A stretch of 64,000 nt of DNA from Aestuariirhabdus litorea (GTDB lineage: Bacteria > Pseudomonadota > Gammaproteobacteria > Pseudomonadales > Aestuariirhabdaceae), in contig NZ_QWEZ01000002.1 of NCBI RefSeq assembly GCF_003864255.1, forward strand, positions 992,001 to 1,056,000, in the 5' to 3' direction. This document shows positions 38,049 through 45,309 of this stretch, one piece after another; the first letter of the stretch is position 1; the number at the start of each line of letters is the position of its first letter. The notes beneath the pieces were generated by a model. It ran no database searches, was not told the DNA's origin, and saw only the letters and a list, made by a program, of their open reading frames with translations. Both the position numbers and the translations under genes were made by a program.

Positions 38049-38108
38049 CTCGAGTCTCGTTGAGTGGTTGCAGGGCAGTGTTCTGCCCTGCAGTGTAGCG
38101 CGGTGGGG

Positions 38109-39440
38109 TTAGAGGATATAGCGGCTCAGGTCTTCGTCCTGCGCCAGCTCACCCAGGGCCTGATCGACGTAGTTGGCGTTAATGGTGATCAGCTCGCCGG
38201 CGCTGCCGAGGTCGGCGGCGCTGAAAGAGACCTCCTCCAGCAACCGTTCCATTACGGTGTGCAGGCGACGGGCACCGATGTTTTCGGTGGTCTCGTTGAC
38301 CCGCCAGGCCATCTCTGCGATTCGGTTGATGCCATCTTCGGTGAAGCTCAGCGGCACCCCTTCGGTCTGCATCAGTGCCTGGTACTGCTCGGTCAGGGAG
38401 AAGTCGGGCTCGGTGAGGATGCGTTCAAAGTCGTCGGTGGAGAGGGCGTTCAGCTCGACCCGGATGGGCAGTCGCCCCTGCAGCTCGGGGATCAGGTCGG
38501 AGGGCTTGGCCAGGTGGAAGGCGCCCGAGGCGATGAAGAGGATATGGTCTGTCTTGATCATCCCGAACTTGGTGTTGACGGTGCAGCCCTCGATCAGTGG
38601 CAGCAGGTCGCGTTGCACCCCTTCGCGGGAGACGTCAGCGCTGGCTCCGCTGGAGCGTTTGGCTACCTTGTCGATCTCGTCGATAAAGACAATGCCGTTC
38701 TGCTCCACCGCCTCCAGTGCGCGTCCCTTGAGCTCCTCTTCGTTGATCAGTTTGGCGGCCTCCTCATCCTGCACCTGCTTGAGGGCGTCCCTGATCTTGA
38801 GTTTGCGGGTTTTACTGCGCCCCTTGTTGAGGTTGGAGAACATATTCTGCAGCTGGGAGGTCATCTCCTCCATGCCGGGAGGCGCCATGATCTCGACCCC
38901 AGCAGGACTATCGCTCAATTCCAGCTCGACCTCCTTCTCATCCAGCTCCCCCTCGCGCAGCTTCTTGCGAAACAGCTGGCGGGTAGAGGAGTCGGCCGGT
39001 TTGCTGTTCTCATCGAAGTCACGGGCCGGTGGCAGCAGGGCGTCGAGGATGCGCTCCTCGGCGGCGTCCAGGGCGCGGTGCTGGACCCGCTGCATCTCCT
39101 CTTCGCGCATCATCTTGATGGCGGCGTCCATCAGGTCGCGTACGATCGATTCCACGTCGCGGCCGACGTAGCCCACCTCGGTGAACTTGGTGGCTTCAAC
39201 CTTGATGAAGGGGGCTTTGGCGAGACGGGCCAGGCGGCGCGCGATTTCGGTTTTGCCTACCCCGGTGGGGCCGATCATAAGGATGTTCTTGGGGGTAATC
39301 TCGACACGCTGCTCGGGGCTGAGCTGCATGCGTCGCCAGCGGTTGCGCAGGGCGATCGCCACGGCACGCTTGGCTTCCGATTGGCCGATGATGTGCTTGT
39401 CCAGCTCGTGGACGATTTCACGGGGGGTCATATTGGACAT
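38109..39440 (-). CDS. hslU: ATP-dependent protease ATPase subunit HslU
   Basis: 443-aa AAA+ unfoldase that forms hexamers on Hsl[18 protein letters not shown] at the start, Walker [19 protein letters not shown] pore-loop motif, the inserted I-domain (about 110-240), Walker [13 protein letters not shown], sensor FIASGAFH, and a C-terminus ending in DLSRYIL, the tail that docks into HslV. 18 nt downstream of hslV. Confidence 0.98.
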
Positions 39441-39458
39441 AGTAATTTCCGCTCGGCG

Positions 39459-40001
39459 TTATTCGCAGTCGAGCACCTCAATGGTGCGGTTGTGATTGGT
39501 GTAGATGCAGATGTCAGCGGCGATCTCCAGCCCCTTCTCGACGATGTCGCGTGCTTCCAGCTCGGTGTTGTGGAGCAGGGCGCGGGCTGCAGACTGGGCA
39601 AAGGGGCCGCCGGAGCCGATGGCGATCAGGCTCTCCTCTGGCTCGATCACATCCCCGTTGCCGGTAATGATCAGGGAGGCCTTGGCATCAGCCACGGCGA
39701 GCAGCGCCTCCAGCCGGCGCAGGGCGCGATCGGTACGCCACTCCTTGGCCAGCTCGACGGCGGCTCGCACCAGCTGCCCCTGGTGCTTCTCCAGTTGGGC
39801 CTCGAAGCGCTCGAAGAGGGTGAACGCGTCGGCCGTGCCGCCAGCAAAACCGGCGATCACCTGGTTGTTGTAGAGACGTCGAACTTTGCGGGCGTTGCCC
39901 TTCATCACGGTGTTGCCCAGCGATACCTGGCCGTCGCCACCAATAACGACTTTGCCGTTACGGCGAACCGACAGGATCGTAGTGCCTCGGTACTGTTCCA
40001 C
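39459..40001 (-). CDS. hslV: ATP-dependent protease peptidase subunit HslV
   Basis: 180-aa threonine peptidase. The catalytic Thr lies in [11 protein letters not shown] after a 6-residue stretch (MEQYRG) that must be removed; many relatives have only Met here. [31 protein letters not shown] and [15 protein letters not shown] are conserved. Heat-shock controlled in other bacteria; no clear sigma32 promoter was identified here. Cotranscribed with hslU. Confidence 0.97.
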
Positions 40002-40121
40002 AATTCACTCCTCGAAGGGTCGGCGGCCGACACCCCCGGGGAGAGTTTGCGGGGCGGGCCTGGGTTAGGCGAATATCATCCCAATATGGGGGGCGCTCGC
40101 CAAACTTCAAGCCTTGGCGGG

Positions 40122-40688
40122 CTACTTAAGCTGCAGGGGGAGGGGGTTGATGTTAAGGGCAATCAGGGTCTTGCGTGCCTGGTTGAGGCGCTCGGTATCC
40201 TGGAAGGGGCCGACCTGCACCCGGTACCAGGTTTCGTTACCGCGGATGGTCACCTTCTGGGTTTTGACATCCAGCCCCTCCAGGGTGAGTTGGGCGCGAA
40301 GACGGTCGGCATCCCCCAGGCTGCGGAAAGAGCCGGCCTGCAGCAGGTAGATCCCGGGCTTGGCCGGGTTGGTGGCGGTGGCGGGACGCGAGGCCGGTGG
40401 GGGCGTTGGGCTGGTTTCCGGTACCATCACCTCGCTTTCCGGCAGCAGGGTATAGAAGTCAAACACCGCCCGGGGACGATCCTCGGTGTGGGTGCTGGCG
40501 TCGGTCGCCTCGGTCAGCTCCCGGACGTCGACCGCATTGGGTGCCAGCTTCATCAAAAAAGCGATGAAAAGGCCGGTGACAATACCGGTAAACATCCATA
40601 CCCAGCCGGGCACGTTGGAGCGAGGGCCGGTTTTCTGGGGGGCAGGCTTACGGCTGGCGCCACCCTGTGTTTTGCTGTGTCGGCTCAT
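40122..40688 (-). CDS. SPOR-domain membrane protein (FtsN-like position)
   Basis: 188 aa. A basic cytoplasmic N-terminus (MSRHSKTQGGASRKPAPQK) leads to one membrane helix (about 29-48, VPGWVWMFTGIVTGLFIAFL). A periplasmic Pro-rich linker follows, and a C-terminal SPOR domain (about 110-185; GIYLLQAGSFRSLGDADRLRAQL, WYRVQVGPFQDTERLNQAR) that binds denuded glycan at the septum. It sits upstream of hslVU as ftsN does in E. coli; it may be the functional FtsN, but the essential motif is not evident to me. ATG 40688 chosen; the upstream extension reads into the promoter region. Confidence 0.88.
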   Translation of the reverse strand: MSRHSKTQGGASRKPAPQKTGPRSNVPGWVWMFTGIVTGLFIAFLMKLAPNAVDVRELTEATDASTHTEDRPRAVFDFYTLLPESEVMVPETSPTPPPASRPATATNPAKPGIYLLQAGSFRSLGDADRLRAQLTLEGLDVKTQKVTIRGNETWYRVQVGPFQDTERLNQARKTLIALNINPLPLQLK

Positions 40689-40730
40689 GGAGGGGGGGAG
40701 GGTTCCGCTTGGAAGGCAATCTGGGGGCTC

Positions 40731-40760
40731 ATTATCGCCATTGTTGGCCAGCCAGTACAA
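40731..40760 (-). promoter_or_regulatory. Possible promoter of the SPOR-hslVU group
   Basis: Minus strand: -35 TTGTAC (40755-40760), 18-bp spacer, -10 GATAAT (40731-40736). Confidence 0.4.
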
Positions 40761-40805
40761 GGGCGCCGTTGGGCGCGCCTGAGGGGCGGGTAGGGGATTG
40801 TACTA

Positions 40806-40834
40806 TTGTTATACAGCCCCCTTTTGGGTAGTAT
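40806..40834 (+). promoter_or_regulatory. Possible promoter of the argS leader
   Basis: TTGTTA (40806-40811), 17-bp spacer, TAGTAT (40829-40834). A TATACA at 40810-40815 is an alternative -10 without a good -35. With the first choice the transcript would begin almost at the leader ATG; with the second the 5' end is about 20 nt longer. Confidence 0.35.
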
Positions 40835-40842
40835 CCGCGCCT

Positions 40843-40968
40843 ATGAAATCTGTATTCGCCCGCACCACTTCAGCTGCTGACTTTAACCTCCGGGTTGAGG
40901 GTTCTGCTGTGGGTGCTGCGGTGGTGACAATGGGGCGACGACGCTCCAGCTTGTCCCTATTCCGTTAG
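40843..40968 (+). CDS. Putative argS leader peptide (Arg-codon attenuator)
   Basis: 41 codons, ATG 40843 to TAG 40968, ending in TMGRRRSSLSLFR. Six Arg codons, three of them in a row (CGA CGA CGC, 40936-40944), lie just ahead of a strong terminator and then argS. A shorter version could start at ATG 40930 (12 residues). The ribosome site is weak for both. The Arg codons pair with 40973-40980, which in turn can pair with the 5' arm of the terminator. This is the layout of ribosome-mediated attenuation with arginine as the sensed amino acid. Function is inferred from position and structure; I know of no described argS leader peptide of this kind. Confidence 0.6.
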   Translation: MKSVFARTTSAADFNLRVEGSAVGAAVVTMGRRRSSLSLFR

Positions 40969-40991
40969 GCCGGTCGGCGCAGATCTACTCC

Positions 40992-41024
40992 AAACCCGAT
41001 CAGTGCTACTGGTCGGGTTTTTTT
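40992..41024 (+). terminator. Intrinsic terminator in the argS leader (attenuator)
   Basis: AAACCCGATCAG-TGCTA-CTGGTCGGGTTT, a 12-bp stem with one G-U pair and a run of seven T, lies 52 nt before the argS start. No gene ends just upstream on this strand except the 41-codon leader, so it acts within the argS message. An upstream copy of its 3' arm core (GGTCGG, 40972-40977) could form the competing antiterminator. Confidence 0.85.
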
Positions 41025-41076
41025 ATTTGGCTTGCCGCTCTAGCCCTCCACTTCTGCTCAACGTTAAGGATGTTAC

Positions 41077-42825
41077 ATGAATATTCGCCAGTTTCTTGAT
41101 GCCAAGGTTGCCCATGCTCTCCACATGGCCGGTGCCCCCGAGGGCAGTGCCGGTATGGTCCGCCCCAGCGCTCGAGCCAACTTTGGCGATTACCAGGCCA
41201 ACGGCGTGATGGCGGTGGCCAAAAGCCAGGGGCTTAACCCCCGTGAACTGGCCCTCAAGGTGCAGAGGCTGCTGGAGGCGGAGCTGGGCGATGTGGTGGA
41301 GAAGTTTGAGGTGGCCGGCCCCGGCTTTATCAATATCTTCCTTAACCCCCAGTGGGTGGCCGGGCAGCTGGAACAGGCCTATGGCAGCGAGCGTGCCGGC
41401 GTCAGCCAGGCGCAACCGCCGCAGACCGTGGTGGTGGACCTGTCTGCCCCCAATGTGGCCAAAGAGATGCACGTGGGACATCTGCGCTCCACCGTGATCG
41501 GTGACGCCGTCTCCCGTACCCTGGAGTTTCTCGGCCATAAGGTGATCCGGGCTAACCATATCGGGGACTGGGGAACCCAGTTCGGTATGTTGATTGCTCA
41601 CCTCGAGGAGCTGCAGAAGGAAAATCCGGCCATCATGGAAGCGGAGTTGGGGGACCTCGAACAGTTTTACCGCGAGTCCAAGACCCACTACGATGAAAAT
41701 CCCGATTTTGCCGAGCGTGCCCGTGGCTATGTGGTCAAGCTGCAGGGGGGGGATCCCTGGTGCCTGCAGATGTGGCGCAAGCTGGTGGATGTGACCATGG
41801 TGCAGAACCAGCGCACCTACGATCGGCTCAACGTCAAGATTCGTCCCGAAGACACCATGGGCGAGAGCATGTACAACGATATGCTGCCCGCCATCGTGGC
41901 AGACCTGAAAACCAAGGGGCTGGCGGTCGAGGATGAGGGAGCCCTGGTGGTCTACCTTGATGAGTTCAAGGGCAAGGATGGTGAGCCGATGGGGGTGATC
42001 GTGCAGAAGCGTGATGGCGGCTTCCTCTACACCACCACTGACATCGCCTGTGCCAAGTACCGTTACGAAACCCTGGGTGCCGATCGCGTGCTCTACTACA
42101 TCGATGCGCGCCAGGCGCAGCACCTTCAGCACGCCTGGACCATCGTTCGCAAGGCCGGCTATGTGCCCGACACGGTGCCGCTGGAGCACCATGCCTTTGG
42201 CGTGATGCTGGGCAAGGATGGCAAACCCTTCAAAACCCGCAGCGGTGGCACCGTTAAACTGTCGGACCTGCTGGACGAAGCATTGAGCCGGGCCACCGCC
42301 CTGATTGCCAGCAAGAGCCCCGATATGGACGCGGCGCAGCAGGCCGAGGTGGCCAATGCGGTGGCCATCGGTGCGGTCAAGTACGCCGACCTCTCCAAGA
42401 ACCGGACCACCGACTACGTTTTCGACTGGGACAACATGCTCTCCTTCGAGGGCAACACCGCCCCCTACCTGCAGTACGCCGTGACCCGTATTCGCTCTAT
42501 CTTCCGCAAGGCGGGGGTCGAGGTGACCGGGCTCCAGGGAGCGCTGGTGATTAATGAAGCGGAGGAGCGCGCCCTGGCCACCAAGCTGGTGCAGTTCAAT
42601 GAGGTGGTCGACAACCTGGCCCGTGAGGGTTGCCCCCACCTGTTGTGCACCTATCTGTACGAGCTGGCCGGCGCCTTTATGACCTTCTACGAAGCCTGCC
42701 CGGTCAACAAGGATGGGGTCGATGTCGCCGTGCGTGATAGTCGTCTCAAGCTCTGTGCGCTGGTGGCTCGCGAGCTGGAGTTGGGGCTGGGGCTGCTGGG
42801 TATCGACACCGTCGAGCAGATGTAA
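41077..42825 (+). CDS. argS: Arginyl-tRNA synthetase
   Basis: 582-aa class I synthetase. N-terminal Add1 domain (about 1-110; [18 protein letters not shown]), HIGH-type motif [12 protein letters not shown] ([15 protein letters not shown]), [11 protein letters not shown], and the KMSKS-equivalent [18 protein letters not shown]. The C-terminal DALR anticodon-binding domain (from about 470) has [14 protein letters not shown]. Similar in length to the E. coli enzyme (577 aa). The SD is AAGGATG-like, 8 nt before ATG. It lies behind the attenuator at 40992. Confidence 0.98.
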
Positions 42826-42826
42826 T

Positions 42827-42840
42827 CCCCGCCGGCGGGG
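42827..42840 (+). other. Hairpin after argS
   Basis: CCCCGCCGGCGGGG directly follows the stop; there is no T run, so its role as a terminator is doubtful. The rest of the argS-priA gap (to 43083) shows no gene; it contains a run of nine C at 42962-42970. Confidence 0.4.
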
Positions 42841-43083
42841 TAGCTACTGCCCATTGGCCCCTGTGACCCGCTGCAGGTAGTGGCGCAGCTGTGCGCGCCA
42901 CCCGATCTGCCCTGTTTTTTTGTTCGGCCCGGGCCTGCGGCTCGGGCGAACCGGCTCGCCGCCCCCCCCCTTGTCATTGAGTCAGCGACGCTTGCAGAAA
43001 GGCCAGTTGGACGCTATTGGGGCCCTGGCTGAAGGGCGCCCATAAGCTGCCCGGTACCATCAAAGGGCGGGGCGGCGCATTAC

Positions 43084-45309
43084 CTACAGCATCTCCTGGG
43101 GGTCCACATCCACCGACCAGCGAACCTTGCGGCCGAGAGGGTGTGCCTCCATTACCGGCACCAGCACCTGCAGTAGCTGGTGGAGGTCGCGGCGGGAGTG
43201 GCTCTGCAGCAGCAGTTGGCTGCGGTAGCGCCCCTGCCGGCGCTCCATGGGCGCGGCGATGGGGCCCAGCAGGCTGACTTTGAGCCCTGCCGTCTGCACC
43301 TGTGCCTCTCCCGCCTGGCGGGTATCGGCCAGTAGCTGCTGGCTTAGCGCCATGGCAGGTGCCTCCCCCCGAAGTAGCACCAGGTATTGGAAGGGGGGCA
43401 GTCCCAGTAGCTGTCGCTCCTGCAGCAGGGTACGGGCAAAGGGCTCGTAGCCCTGGTGGATCAGTTGCAGCAGAGCCGGGTGTTCAGGGTTGTGGGTCTG
43501 GATCGCCACCGAGCCCTGGCGGTCGGCGCGTCCGGCGCGTCCGGCCACCTGCAGCAATAGTTGGCCCATCCGCTCAAGGCCGCGAAAGTCAGTGCTGAAC
43601 AGGCCGCCGTCGATATCGAGGATGGCAACCAGGGTGACGGCGGGAAAGTGGTGCCCTTTGGCCAGCATCTGGGTGCCCAGCAGTATCGCTGGCTCTCCCC
43701 GCTGGATCTGTTTGAGTAACTTGCCCATGGCATCCTTGCGGCGGGTACTGTCGCGGTCGATGCGCAGGATGGATCGCTTGGGAAAGCGTTGTTGCAGCTC
43801 CTCTTCGCTGCGCTCGGTTCCCTGGCCGACCGGATAGAGTTCCTCGCTCTGGCACTGGGGGCAGCGGAAGGGGACCGGCGCCTGGCTGTCGCAGTGATGG
43901 CAATGCAGGTGCGGAGGTGAGCGGTGCAGGGTCATGCGTGAGTCACAGAGCCGGCACTCTGCTACCCAGCCGCACTGGTGGCATAGCAGGGTAGGGGCGT
44001 ATCCCCGTCGGTTGAGGAACAGCAGCACCTGGTTCCCCTGGGCCAGGTGCTGCTCCACCTGACCTTGCAGTGCCGGGGTCATGCCCGCCACCAGCGGCTG
44101 GCCGCGCAGGTCGATCAGCTCGTAGTGGGGGTGGCTGGCGGCGGCTCGCTGGGGCAGCAACAGCTGGCTGTAGCGCTGCTGCAGGGCGTTGTGGAGTGAT
44201 TCCAGGCTGGGGGTGGCGGATCCCAGCACGATGGGGATGTTCTCCAGCTTGGCGCGGTAGATCGCCAGGTCGCGGGCGTTGTAGCGTAACCCCTCCTGCT
44301 GTTTATAGGAGGCGTCGTGCTCCTCATCCACAATGATGATGCCGGGACGCAGCAGCGGGGTAAACAGGCTGCTGCGGGTGCCGATCAGAATCCCGGCCCG
44401 GCCGCTGCGGGCATCGAGCCAGGCTTTGAGGCGCTCGCGGTCATTGAGGCCCGAGTGCATCGCCGCCGTGGGTACATTAAAGCGCTGGCGAAAACGTTGC
44501 AGGGTTTGCGGTGTGAGCCCGATCTCCGGCACCAGCACCAGCGCCTGCTTGCCCTGCAGCAGTACCTGTTCGATGCAGCGCAGGTAGACCTCGGTTTTGC
44601 CGCTGCCCGTTACCCCCTGCAGCAGGTGGCAGTGAAAGCGGTCAAGATCGCACTCGATGCGATCCAGTGCACCTTGCTGGTCGGCATTGAGGGGAAGGGG
44701 GGCTTCATGAAGCAGGGGGCTGGGCCAGTGCACCGGCTCCTCCCTCTGTTCGCACACCAGCAGCTGTTTTTCCCGCAGTGTCTTGAGAGTGGGGGTGGAG
44801 ATCCCGAGGCTGGCGAGCAAAGGCTGGCTGACCCCCTTGGGGTGGCGGGCCAGCTCCTCCATGGCCTGCAACTGCCTGGGTGCCCGTTGTAACTGCTGGC
44901 GCAGCTTGTCATCCAGTGGTTGCAGGCAACGCCAGTGGGGCTCGGCCAGGCTGGTGGCGTGACCCTGGCGCAGCAGGGCAGGCAGCGCGACGCTGAGGGT
45001 ATCTCCCAGACTGTGGTGGTAGTAGTCGGCACACCAGCGGCACAGCTCCAGCAGTGCGTCGGGGAGCAGAGGGGTGCTATCGATCAGCTCGATGGCGGTT
45101 TTCAGCTGTTCGGGGGCCAGCTCGCTGTTATCGGTTTGCTCGACCAGCAGGCCGATCAGGGTGCGATTGCCAAAGGGCACGCTGATGCGTACCCCCGGCA
45201 CCAGTGTGGCCTGGGACCAGGACTCGGGAACTCGGTAGTCGAACAGGCGCCGCAGGGGGGAGGGAAGCGCCATACGCAGGATCCTTCCAGGGTGTTCGCT
45301 AGCGTGCAT
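43084..45309 (-). CDS. priA: Primosomal helicase PriA
   Basis: 741-aa superfamily 2 helicase that restarts stalled forks. An N-terminal DNA-binding domain opens ILRMALPSPLRRLFDYRVPE. Walker A is GVTGSGKTEVYL, the DEEH box VDEEHDASYKQ. The zinc module has four Cys pairs (CHQC, CRLC, CHHC, CPQC). LGTQMLAKGHHFPAVTLV and QVAGRAGRADRQG are helicase motifs V-VI. The ATG at 45309 is kept because the Pseudomonas protein also has a short extension before LALPSPLRR; ATG 45273 is possible. Confidence 0.97.
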   Translation of the reverse strand: MHASEHPGRILRMALPSPLRRLFDYRVPESWSQATLVPGVRISVPFGNRTLIGLLVEQTDNSELAPEQLKTAIELIDSTPLLPDALLELCRWCADYYHHSLGDTLSVALPALLRQGHATSLAEPHWRCLQPLDDKLRQQLQRAPRQLQAMEELARHPKGVSQPLLASLGISTPTLKTLREKQLLVCEQREEPVHWPSPLLHEAPLPLNADQQGALDRIECDLDRFHCHLLQGVTGSGKTEVYLRCIEQVLLQGKQALVLVPEIGLTPQTLQRFRQRFNVPTAAMHSGLNDRERLKAWLDARSGRAGILIGTRSSLFTPLLRPGIIIVDEEHDASYKQQEGLRYNARDLAIYRAKLENIPIVLGSATPSLESLHNALQQRYSQLLLPQRAAASHPHYELIDLRGQPLVAGMTPALQGQVEQHLAQGNQVLLFLNRRGYAPTLLCHQCGWVAECRLCDSRMTLHRSPPHLHCHHCDSQAPVPFRCPQCQSEELYPVGQGTERSEEELQQRFPKRSILRIDRDSTRRKDAMGKLLKQIQRGEPAILLGTQMLAKGHHFPAVTLVAILDIDGGLFSTDFRGLERMGQLLLQVAGRAGRADRQGSVAIQTHNPEHPALLQLIHQGYEPFARTLLQERQLLGLPPFQYLVLLRGEAPAMALSQQLLADTRQAGEAQVQTAGLKVSLLGPIAAPMERRQGRYRSQLLLQSHSRRDLHQLLQVLVPVMEAHPLGRKVRWSVDVDPQEML

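Follow-up and report, generated by a model that had tools for sequence, protein, structure and literature searches.

A putative leader-peptide attenuator with tandem CGA codons upstream of argS in Aestuariirhabdus litorea and its relatives

Results

Organization of the argS locus

The window analysed here is a 64,000-nt (64-kb) stretch of the Aestuariirhabdus litorea genome. It contains argS (41077-42825, + strand), which encodes an arginyl-tRNA synthetase of 582 aa; this identity, proposed in a first-pass annotation made from the letters of the DNA, agrees with the Pfam domains tRNA-synt_1d, DALR_1 and Arg_tRNA_synt_N. The gene is single-copy, with one match in a genome search. Its neighbours look like hslV, hslU and priA, names assigned from Pfam family and position, and a divergent gene with a SPOR domain (Pfam) lies upstream (40122-40760, minus strand). 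On the + strand, an open frame of 909 codons (38064-40793) covers the antisense side of hslU, of hslV and of the SPOR gene and is probably a by-product of G+C-rich codon bias.

From the SPOR gene to argS, the order of elements is a promoter-like site, a leader ORF, the motif GGTCGG and an intrinsic terminator. The leader ORF (40843-40968, + strand; MKSVFARTTSAADFNLRVEGSAVGAAVVTMGRRRSSLSLFR) comprises 41 codons, starts at ATG 40843, ends at TAG 40966-40968 and carries the tandem arginine codons CGA CGA CGC at 40936-40944. GGTCGG is found at 40972-40977 and again at 41011-41016, with CCGATC at 40996-41001. These positions, like every other coordinate of the first-pass annotation, were verified.

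Conservation of the leader upstream of argS

We searched argS upstream regions for leaders of the same arrangement, defined by a TANNNT box 5-10 nt before an ATG, an ORF of 15-70 codons within 450 nt before argS and two or more consecutive Arg codons no further than 8 codons from the stop. Such a leader was present in 22 of 44 regions, our own included, related rows in this count not being independent: 3/3 in family f1, 5/5 in f34, which includes Zooshikella and has the leader before argS in all five main copies, and 14/36 in f7, which we take to be Endozoicomonadaceae, within what is presumably the Pseudomonadales of GTDB. The count excludes L075 and L079, copies of two Zooshikella regions that look the same as L126 and L128, and L159, the second, divergent argS of one genome; the 36 do not include the f7 genome G395, in which argS was not matched. 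Among 165 control regions the same definition selected 3, all of them lacking CGA CGA; the controls were 78 named loci, 55 stretches and 32 other loci, with a few genomes in both collections and with some loci that have a divergent ArgRS and an extrapolated start. It selected none of the 44 reverse complements, and 1.0% and 1.1% of dinucleotide shuffles of the 44 regions and of the controls, respectively.

All 22 leaders contain an in-frame tandem CGA 0-7 codons before the stop, as counted in runs taken from per-leader codon lists, and the codon after CGA CGA is variable (CGA, CGC, CGT, GGC, TGC or stop). Within 400 nt of the 44 argS genes there are 25 CGACGA clusters, 22 of them preceded at 15-200 nt by a box-plus-ATG. 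In every one of these 22, the closest ATG of this kind reads into CGACGA through an open frame, with 11 different spacings; rows L003, L126 and L007 also have a more distant, out-of-frame box-plus-ATG. Three of the 25 clusters are without any box-plus-ATG. Among the controls, CGACGA occurs at all in that stretch in 12 of 165.

In the two other genomes of the genus (G001 and G002), whose argS is 88% and 82% identical to that of A. litorea, the -35 box, the spacing, the -10 box, the ATG 8 nt on, the open frame, GGTCGGC and the terminator are all kept, and the three arginine codons read CGA CGA CGT in one and CGA CGA CGA in the other. The core of the original proposal, an arginine-codon leader peptide ahead of a terminator, is thus supported at the level of sequence, since the frame and the codons persist in relatives and the terminator persists in the genus. 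This conservation answers the sequence-based objection named in the first-pass annotation, that relatives might keep the terminator and lose the frame or the Arg codons. When the leader DNA itself was searched across the order, 6 of 390 genomes matched, our own included, and the three matches outside the genus were fragments of 29-39 nt; phage records gave no match.

The peptide evolves differently from its codons. Across the 22 leaders, length ranges from 25 to 59 codons, and the body of the peptide is not conserved across relatives, the N- and C-ends often being alike within a genus. The A. litorea and G001 peptides share 13 of 38 aligned residues, non-synonymous codon differences exceed synonymous ones in 6 of 8 leader pairs compared, and the A. 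litorea peptide (40843-40968) has no Pfam match at E up to 0.001.

Promoter and start of the leader

A predicted sigma-70 promoter occupies 40806-40834 (+ strand), with a -35 box TTGTTA (40806-40811), a 17-nt spacer and a -10 box TAGTAT (40829-40834), and the leader ATG follows 8 nt downstream of the -10 box. TTGTTA-N17-TAGTAT is identical in G001 and G002. More widely, TTGNNN stands exactly 17 nt upstream of the -10 box in 17 of the 22 leaders, being absent in the five g7 rows, and a -10-like box precedes the ATG by 6-9 nt in 22/22, the finder having required a box at 5-10 nt. Because each ATG lies so close to such a box, we consider the leader ORF to be probably leaderless, with the 5′ end of the transcript predicted at or near the ATG. 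Scored with an ad hoc matrix, the leader promoter ranked first among promoter-like sites in all three genomes of the genus and second in Zooshikella. A standard promoter scan at a threshold of 9/12 matches gave no site, the leader promoter reaching 8/12. The pattern TTGNNN-N16..18-TANNNT-N5..9-ATG occurs at four sites on the two strands of the 64-kb window, the leader ORF among them.

Between the terminator and argS, promoter-like sites in this genus scored at most 3.8 with the ad hoc matrix, versus 9.4 for the leader promoter. Given these low scores, the divergent neighbour and the single argS copy, transcription of argS most likely passes through the terminator. In three regions of f34 (L007, L130 and L131, group g34), a second -10-like box, TAGAAT or TAGTAT, follows the leader about 55-60 nt before argS; promoter scoring covered L007 among them, and argS may have two promoters in the g34 genomes.

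Control codons and tRNA supply

CGA is known to be read only by inosine-type tRNA-Arg(ACG), and poorly. The 57 tRNA gene matches in the A. litorea genome include tRNA-Arg genes with anticodons ACG (four genes), TCT, CCG and CCT, and none of the 57 is a tRNA-Arg(TCG), so that decoding of CGA should fall to the inosine-bearing ACG tRNA. CGA accounts for 45 of 624 Arg codons (7%) in argS of the 22 leader-bearing regions and, in five genes of the window, for 13 of 162. High de-attenuation was obtained in the Salmonella his leader with Arg-Arg pairs containing CGA (PMC4046918), a result that would fit the choice of the codon most sensitive to charging. The speF leader speaks against such a choice: rare and frequent Arg codons were equally effective there (PMC6386406), which indicates that a tandem CGA is not required in every arginine leader.

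The terminator and the alternative helices

The intrinsic terminator (40992-41024, + strand; regions 3 and 4 plus a T-run), detected by scan and by comparative pairing, consists of 13 pairs at 40992-41020 and a T-run at 41018-41024. Four terminator-like sites lie in 40001-43500, a number that is not unusual (2.9 expected), and this one is the richest in pairs. Relative to shuffles, the 70 nt that follow the leader stop have a folding z of -4.7. In an alignment of five sequences, 96.9% of the cells of the terminator helix are paired and three pairs are changed on both sides, all of these changes falling between this genus and two near-identical Zooshikella rows; three two-sided pairs were reached by 177 of 500 shuffles and the covariation score by 1 of 500. 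These data bear out the strong intrinsic terminator that had been proposed before argS.

Region 2 (GGTCGGCGC, 40972-40980, + strand) is the proposed antiterminator arm and is partly complementary to the Arg codons (region 1). It is conserved: CGGTCGGC is identical in A. litorea, G001 and G002, and in Zooshikella an aligned CGGTC is retained within an otherwise diverged spacer. The antiterminator helix 2:3 has 6 bp, including one G-U pair, and 93.3% of its cells are paired, compared with 71.4% for helix 1:2. Among the five sequences, helix 2:3 has no two-sided change, and no covariation was found for helix 1:2. The 2:3 duplex energy was equalled by 53 of 500 shuffles in A. litorea, 63 in G001, 59 in G002 and 190 and 90 in the two Zooshikella rows, the corresponding figures for 1:2 being 218, 183, 291, 34 and 2. 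Neither helix is individually above chance in this genome.

Folding gave the same picture. With the 5′ part masked as by a ribosome, the prediction remained the terminator for each of the six loci and whichever stall state was modelled; a switch would therefore have to be kinetic. Under a 12-nt rule, GGTCGG is covered in A. litorea when a ribosome stands at the stop and is left free in G001, G002 and Zooshikella (TGTCGG), and the off state in these relatives would therefore need the 1:2 pairing, which is strong only in Zooshikella and weak in this genus. For a transcript starting upstream of the ATG, at 40820, the most favourable structure is one in which 40824-40841 pairs with the sequence preceding the terminator. 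Overall, the detailed three-helix switch of the first-pass annotation is weakly supported. Its terminator stands, with three two-sided pairs, and its helices 1:2 and 2:3 do not exceed shuffles in this genome and do not covary. The 6-bp antiterminator, already named as a weak point, was indeed one, never winning in folding.

Other elements near argS

Sequestration of the argS ribosome site was also considered and rejected, the best duplex not going beyond shuffles in most rows (12 of 300 shuffles as good in the best case, L146). No convincing second copy of the element emerged either. A model spanning the Arg codons to the terminator (R1), on which the five training loci score 74-95 bits, was searched in 17 genomes with at most 150 candidates scored per genome, and the next best hit among the matches listed had 37 bits. 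In the genome of the window (G000), four equally weak R1 hits of 20.6 bits lie at contig ends (C1:24-112, C1:2189581-2189669, C5:2-90 and C6:3151-3239), perhaps a shared repeat that breaks the assembly.

Six enterobacterial rows (L043, L048, L052, L057, L066 and L094, from Erwinia, Pantoea and Enterobacter) have an ORF of 40-42 aa ending in an Arg-rich tail (RRR) before argS. These ORFs have a hydrophobic start, a conserved body, AAGGA before the ATG and mostly common Arg codons. The AAGGA, the common codons and the conserved body led us to set them apart from the leader described here; they look like a small protein.

Leaders lacking a detected terminator, and leader loss

An intrinsic terminator was detected in 6 of the 22 leader-bearing regions: three of this genus, two of Zooshikella and one of g130 (L118). 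The expectation of a conserved terminator thus holds for this genus and Zooshikella and is not borne out by the scan for most of the other leaders. Since the leaders kept in related families are mostly ones for which no intrinsic terminator was detected, the output there must differ and may perhaps involve Rho. Several of the post-stop regions are C-rich and G-poor (L145: C 0.30, G 0.11).

In f7, 22 of the 36 regions have either no leader or a decayed one, and it is thus dispensable there. In L129 the ORF is reduced to its start, with no CGACGA, and L156, L157, L160 and L161 lack an ATG after the box, as judged by reading the sequences. In L129, a 16-nt unit (GCAGCCTTGAGCGAAA) is tandemly repeated about 45-190 nt before argS, between the decayed leader and argS. 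On an ArgRS tree with 36 of 52 inner branches strongly supported, which leaves out five f7 regions, rows with the leader are spread over several groups, and these groups also contain sequences of Enterobacteriaceae, Vibrionaceae and Aeromonadaceae that lack it. This scatter suggests that the leader is an old element that was lost more than once.

The arginine repressor (PF01316) was matched in 9 of 25 genomes, including seven leader-bearing f7 genomes, so that leader and repressor are not mutually exclusive. It was matched in none of the three genomes of this genus, one of which is 87% complete, and in none of the five of f34.

Discussion

The promoter-like sequence, the frame, the codons and the terminator upstream of argS are conserved and arranged as attenuation requires. 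We propose that they probably form an attenuator of the leader-peptide type, which acts in cis and ties transcription of argS to the availability of charged tRNA-Arg. Comparative sequence data make an Arg-tRNA leader-peptide sensor for argS a well-supported prediction; an intrinsic-terminator switch is likely in this genome, and the best reading of the other lineages is that the leader has other outputs there. Three features go beyond the first-pass annotation: the probably leaderless ORF, the choice of tandem CGA in particular, and the presence of the element in three families or more, mostly with no intrinsic terminator detected. In the proposed mechanism, transcription would start at or next to ATG 40843 and the first ribosome would load on the 5′ AUG. 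With enough Arg-tRNA, the ribosome would translate CGA CGA CGC through to the stop at 40966 and would then either cover region 2 or depart, allowing the Arg-codon stretch to pair with region 2. Region 2 being occupied in this way, the terminator at 40992-41024 would form and argS would be off. When Arg-tRNA is scarce, the ribosome would wait at the tandem CGA codons, and region 2, left free, could pair with 40996-41001 and hold this pairing until RNA polymerase has gone by.

The likeliest alternative also has the leader sense Arg-tRNA and places the output elsewhere: translation of the leader would control Rho access or RNA stability, the intrinsic terminator being an addition in this genus. 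We regard it as possible though the less likely account. In its favour, the scan found no intrinsic terminator in 16 of the 22 leaders, post-stop regions such as that of L145 have the C-rich, G-poor composition noted above, and the Salmonella speF arginine leader acts via Rho, ribosome-site release and RNase G (PMC6386406). The terminator, however, is strong and conserved in this genome and in Zooshikella, where CGGTC is also kept. We think it unlikely that the tandem CGA reports inosine modification or general CGA elongation (tRNA-Arg(ACG), TadA) instead of arginine charging. Conservation of the codon itself in 22/22 leaders and the lack of a tRNA-Arg(TCG) match in this genome would suit such a role, but the identity of the downstream gene, that of the cognate synthetase, argues for charging, and CGA would also be the most charge-sensitive choice. 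It is very improbable that a spurious ORF stands by chance beside an ordinary terminator that ends some unrelated small transcript, with argS using another promoter: although in this genome helices 1:2 and 2:3 do not stand out clearly from shuffles in energy, the control counts and the CGACGA frame test largely refute this reading, frame, codons and promoter spacing being conserved in 22 regions as against 3/165 controls, and only low-scoring sites separate the terminator from argS in this genus. Least credible of all is a small functional protein acting in trans: the two ends of the peptide are often alike among members of a genus, but its body diverges fast, with an excess of non-synonymous changes in 6/8 pairs, lengths of 25-59 codons and no Pfam family for the A. 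litorea peptide.

With the attenuator as the preferred reading, a broader one can be advanced tentatively, at somewhat less than even confidence: the leaderless mini-ORF with tandem CGA would be an old modular sensor of charged tRNA-Arg(ICG) in front of argS whose output has been exchanged and which has been lost as a whole several times. The sensor half, made up of a promoter that starts the transcript at the AUG and of CGA CGA close to the stop, would be kept in at least three families, and the output half would be an intrinsic terminator in this genus and Zooshikella and something else elsewhere, perhaps Rho.

If the proposed attenuation is true, arginine and argS join the synthetases under leader-peptide control, and a leaderless version of such a leader exists in gammaproteobacteria. 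It would also provide a natural case in which an inosine-read control codon, CGA, is conserved while the peptide is not, and this conservation makes it testable whether attenuators choose the codon most sensitive to charging. In this genus and f34, where the arginine repressor was not matched, control by the leader may matter more.

Comparison with known systems

The first-pass annotation knew of no described attenuator of this kind for argS, and we found none in the open-access literature searched, subscription papers being mostly outside that search. Attenuation of pheST in gammaproteobacteria, trpS and leuS attenuators in Streptomyces and arginine T-boxes have been described (PMC1262725); argS is not named in the available text of PMC2659441, on Shewanella with aspS and glnS leaders, nor in that of PMC2965389, on hisS. 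The arginine-gene T-boxes share with the present leader an RNA-level control by charging of the cognate tRNA (PMC1262725). No T-box, and no other family, was matched at gathering level by Rfam in the window, and at E up to 1 the region 40761-41100 gave only two weak, unrelated, chance-like sRNA hits.

The Salmonella speF leader orf34 is also named SpeFL. Like the argS leader, it is a leader ORF in which two consecutive Arg codons sense arginine; it differs in controlling polyamine synthesis, in having a Shine-Dalgarno sequence and a start at +32, and in its DUF2618 domain (PF10940) (PMC6386406), of which the A. litorea peptide shows no Pfam match. The position predicted for the ORF, at or near the 5′ end of the transcript, would be shared with Sinorhizobium trpL, whose transcript begins with the ATG (PMC7298713), and with the leaderless mycobacterial polycysteine ORFs (Canestrari 2020, as described in PMC9031893), both of which concern other amino acids, other genes and other bacterial classes or phyla.

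The closest likeness is to pheST and the trp, his and leu attenuators, in which a short ORF with a run of cognate codons and a terminator precede a synthetase or biosynthetic gene (PMC1262725 for pheST). The cognate run is present here (RRR in A. litorea), as is a terminator between leader and gene in this genome, its genus and Zooshikella, and in 6/22 leaders overall. Unlike in those systems, the amino acid is arginine and the gene argS, the leader is probably leaderless with its control codons 0-7 codons from the stop, the antiterminator is very weak, and most leader-bearing relatives have no detected intrinsic terminator. Attenuation of argS by a leader peptide, as proposed here, would be a variant of a known mechanism, with arginine as the amino acid and argS as the gene.
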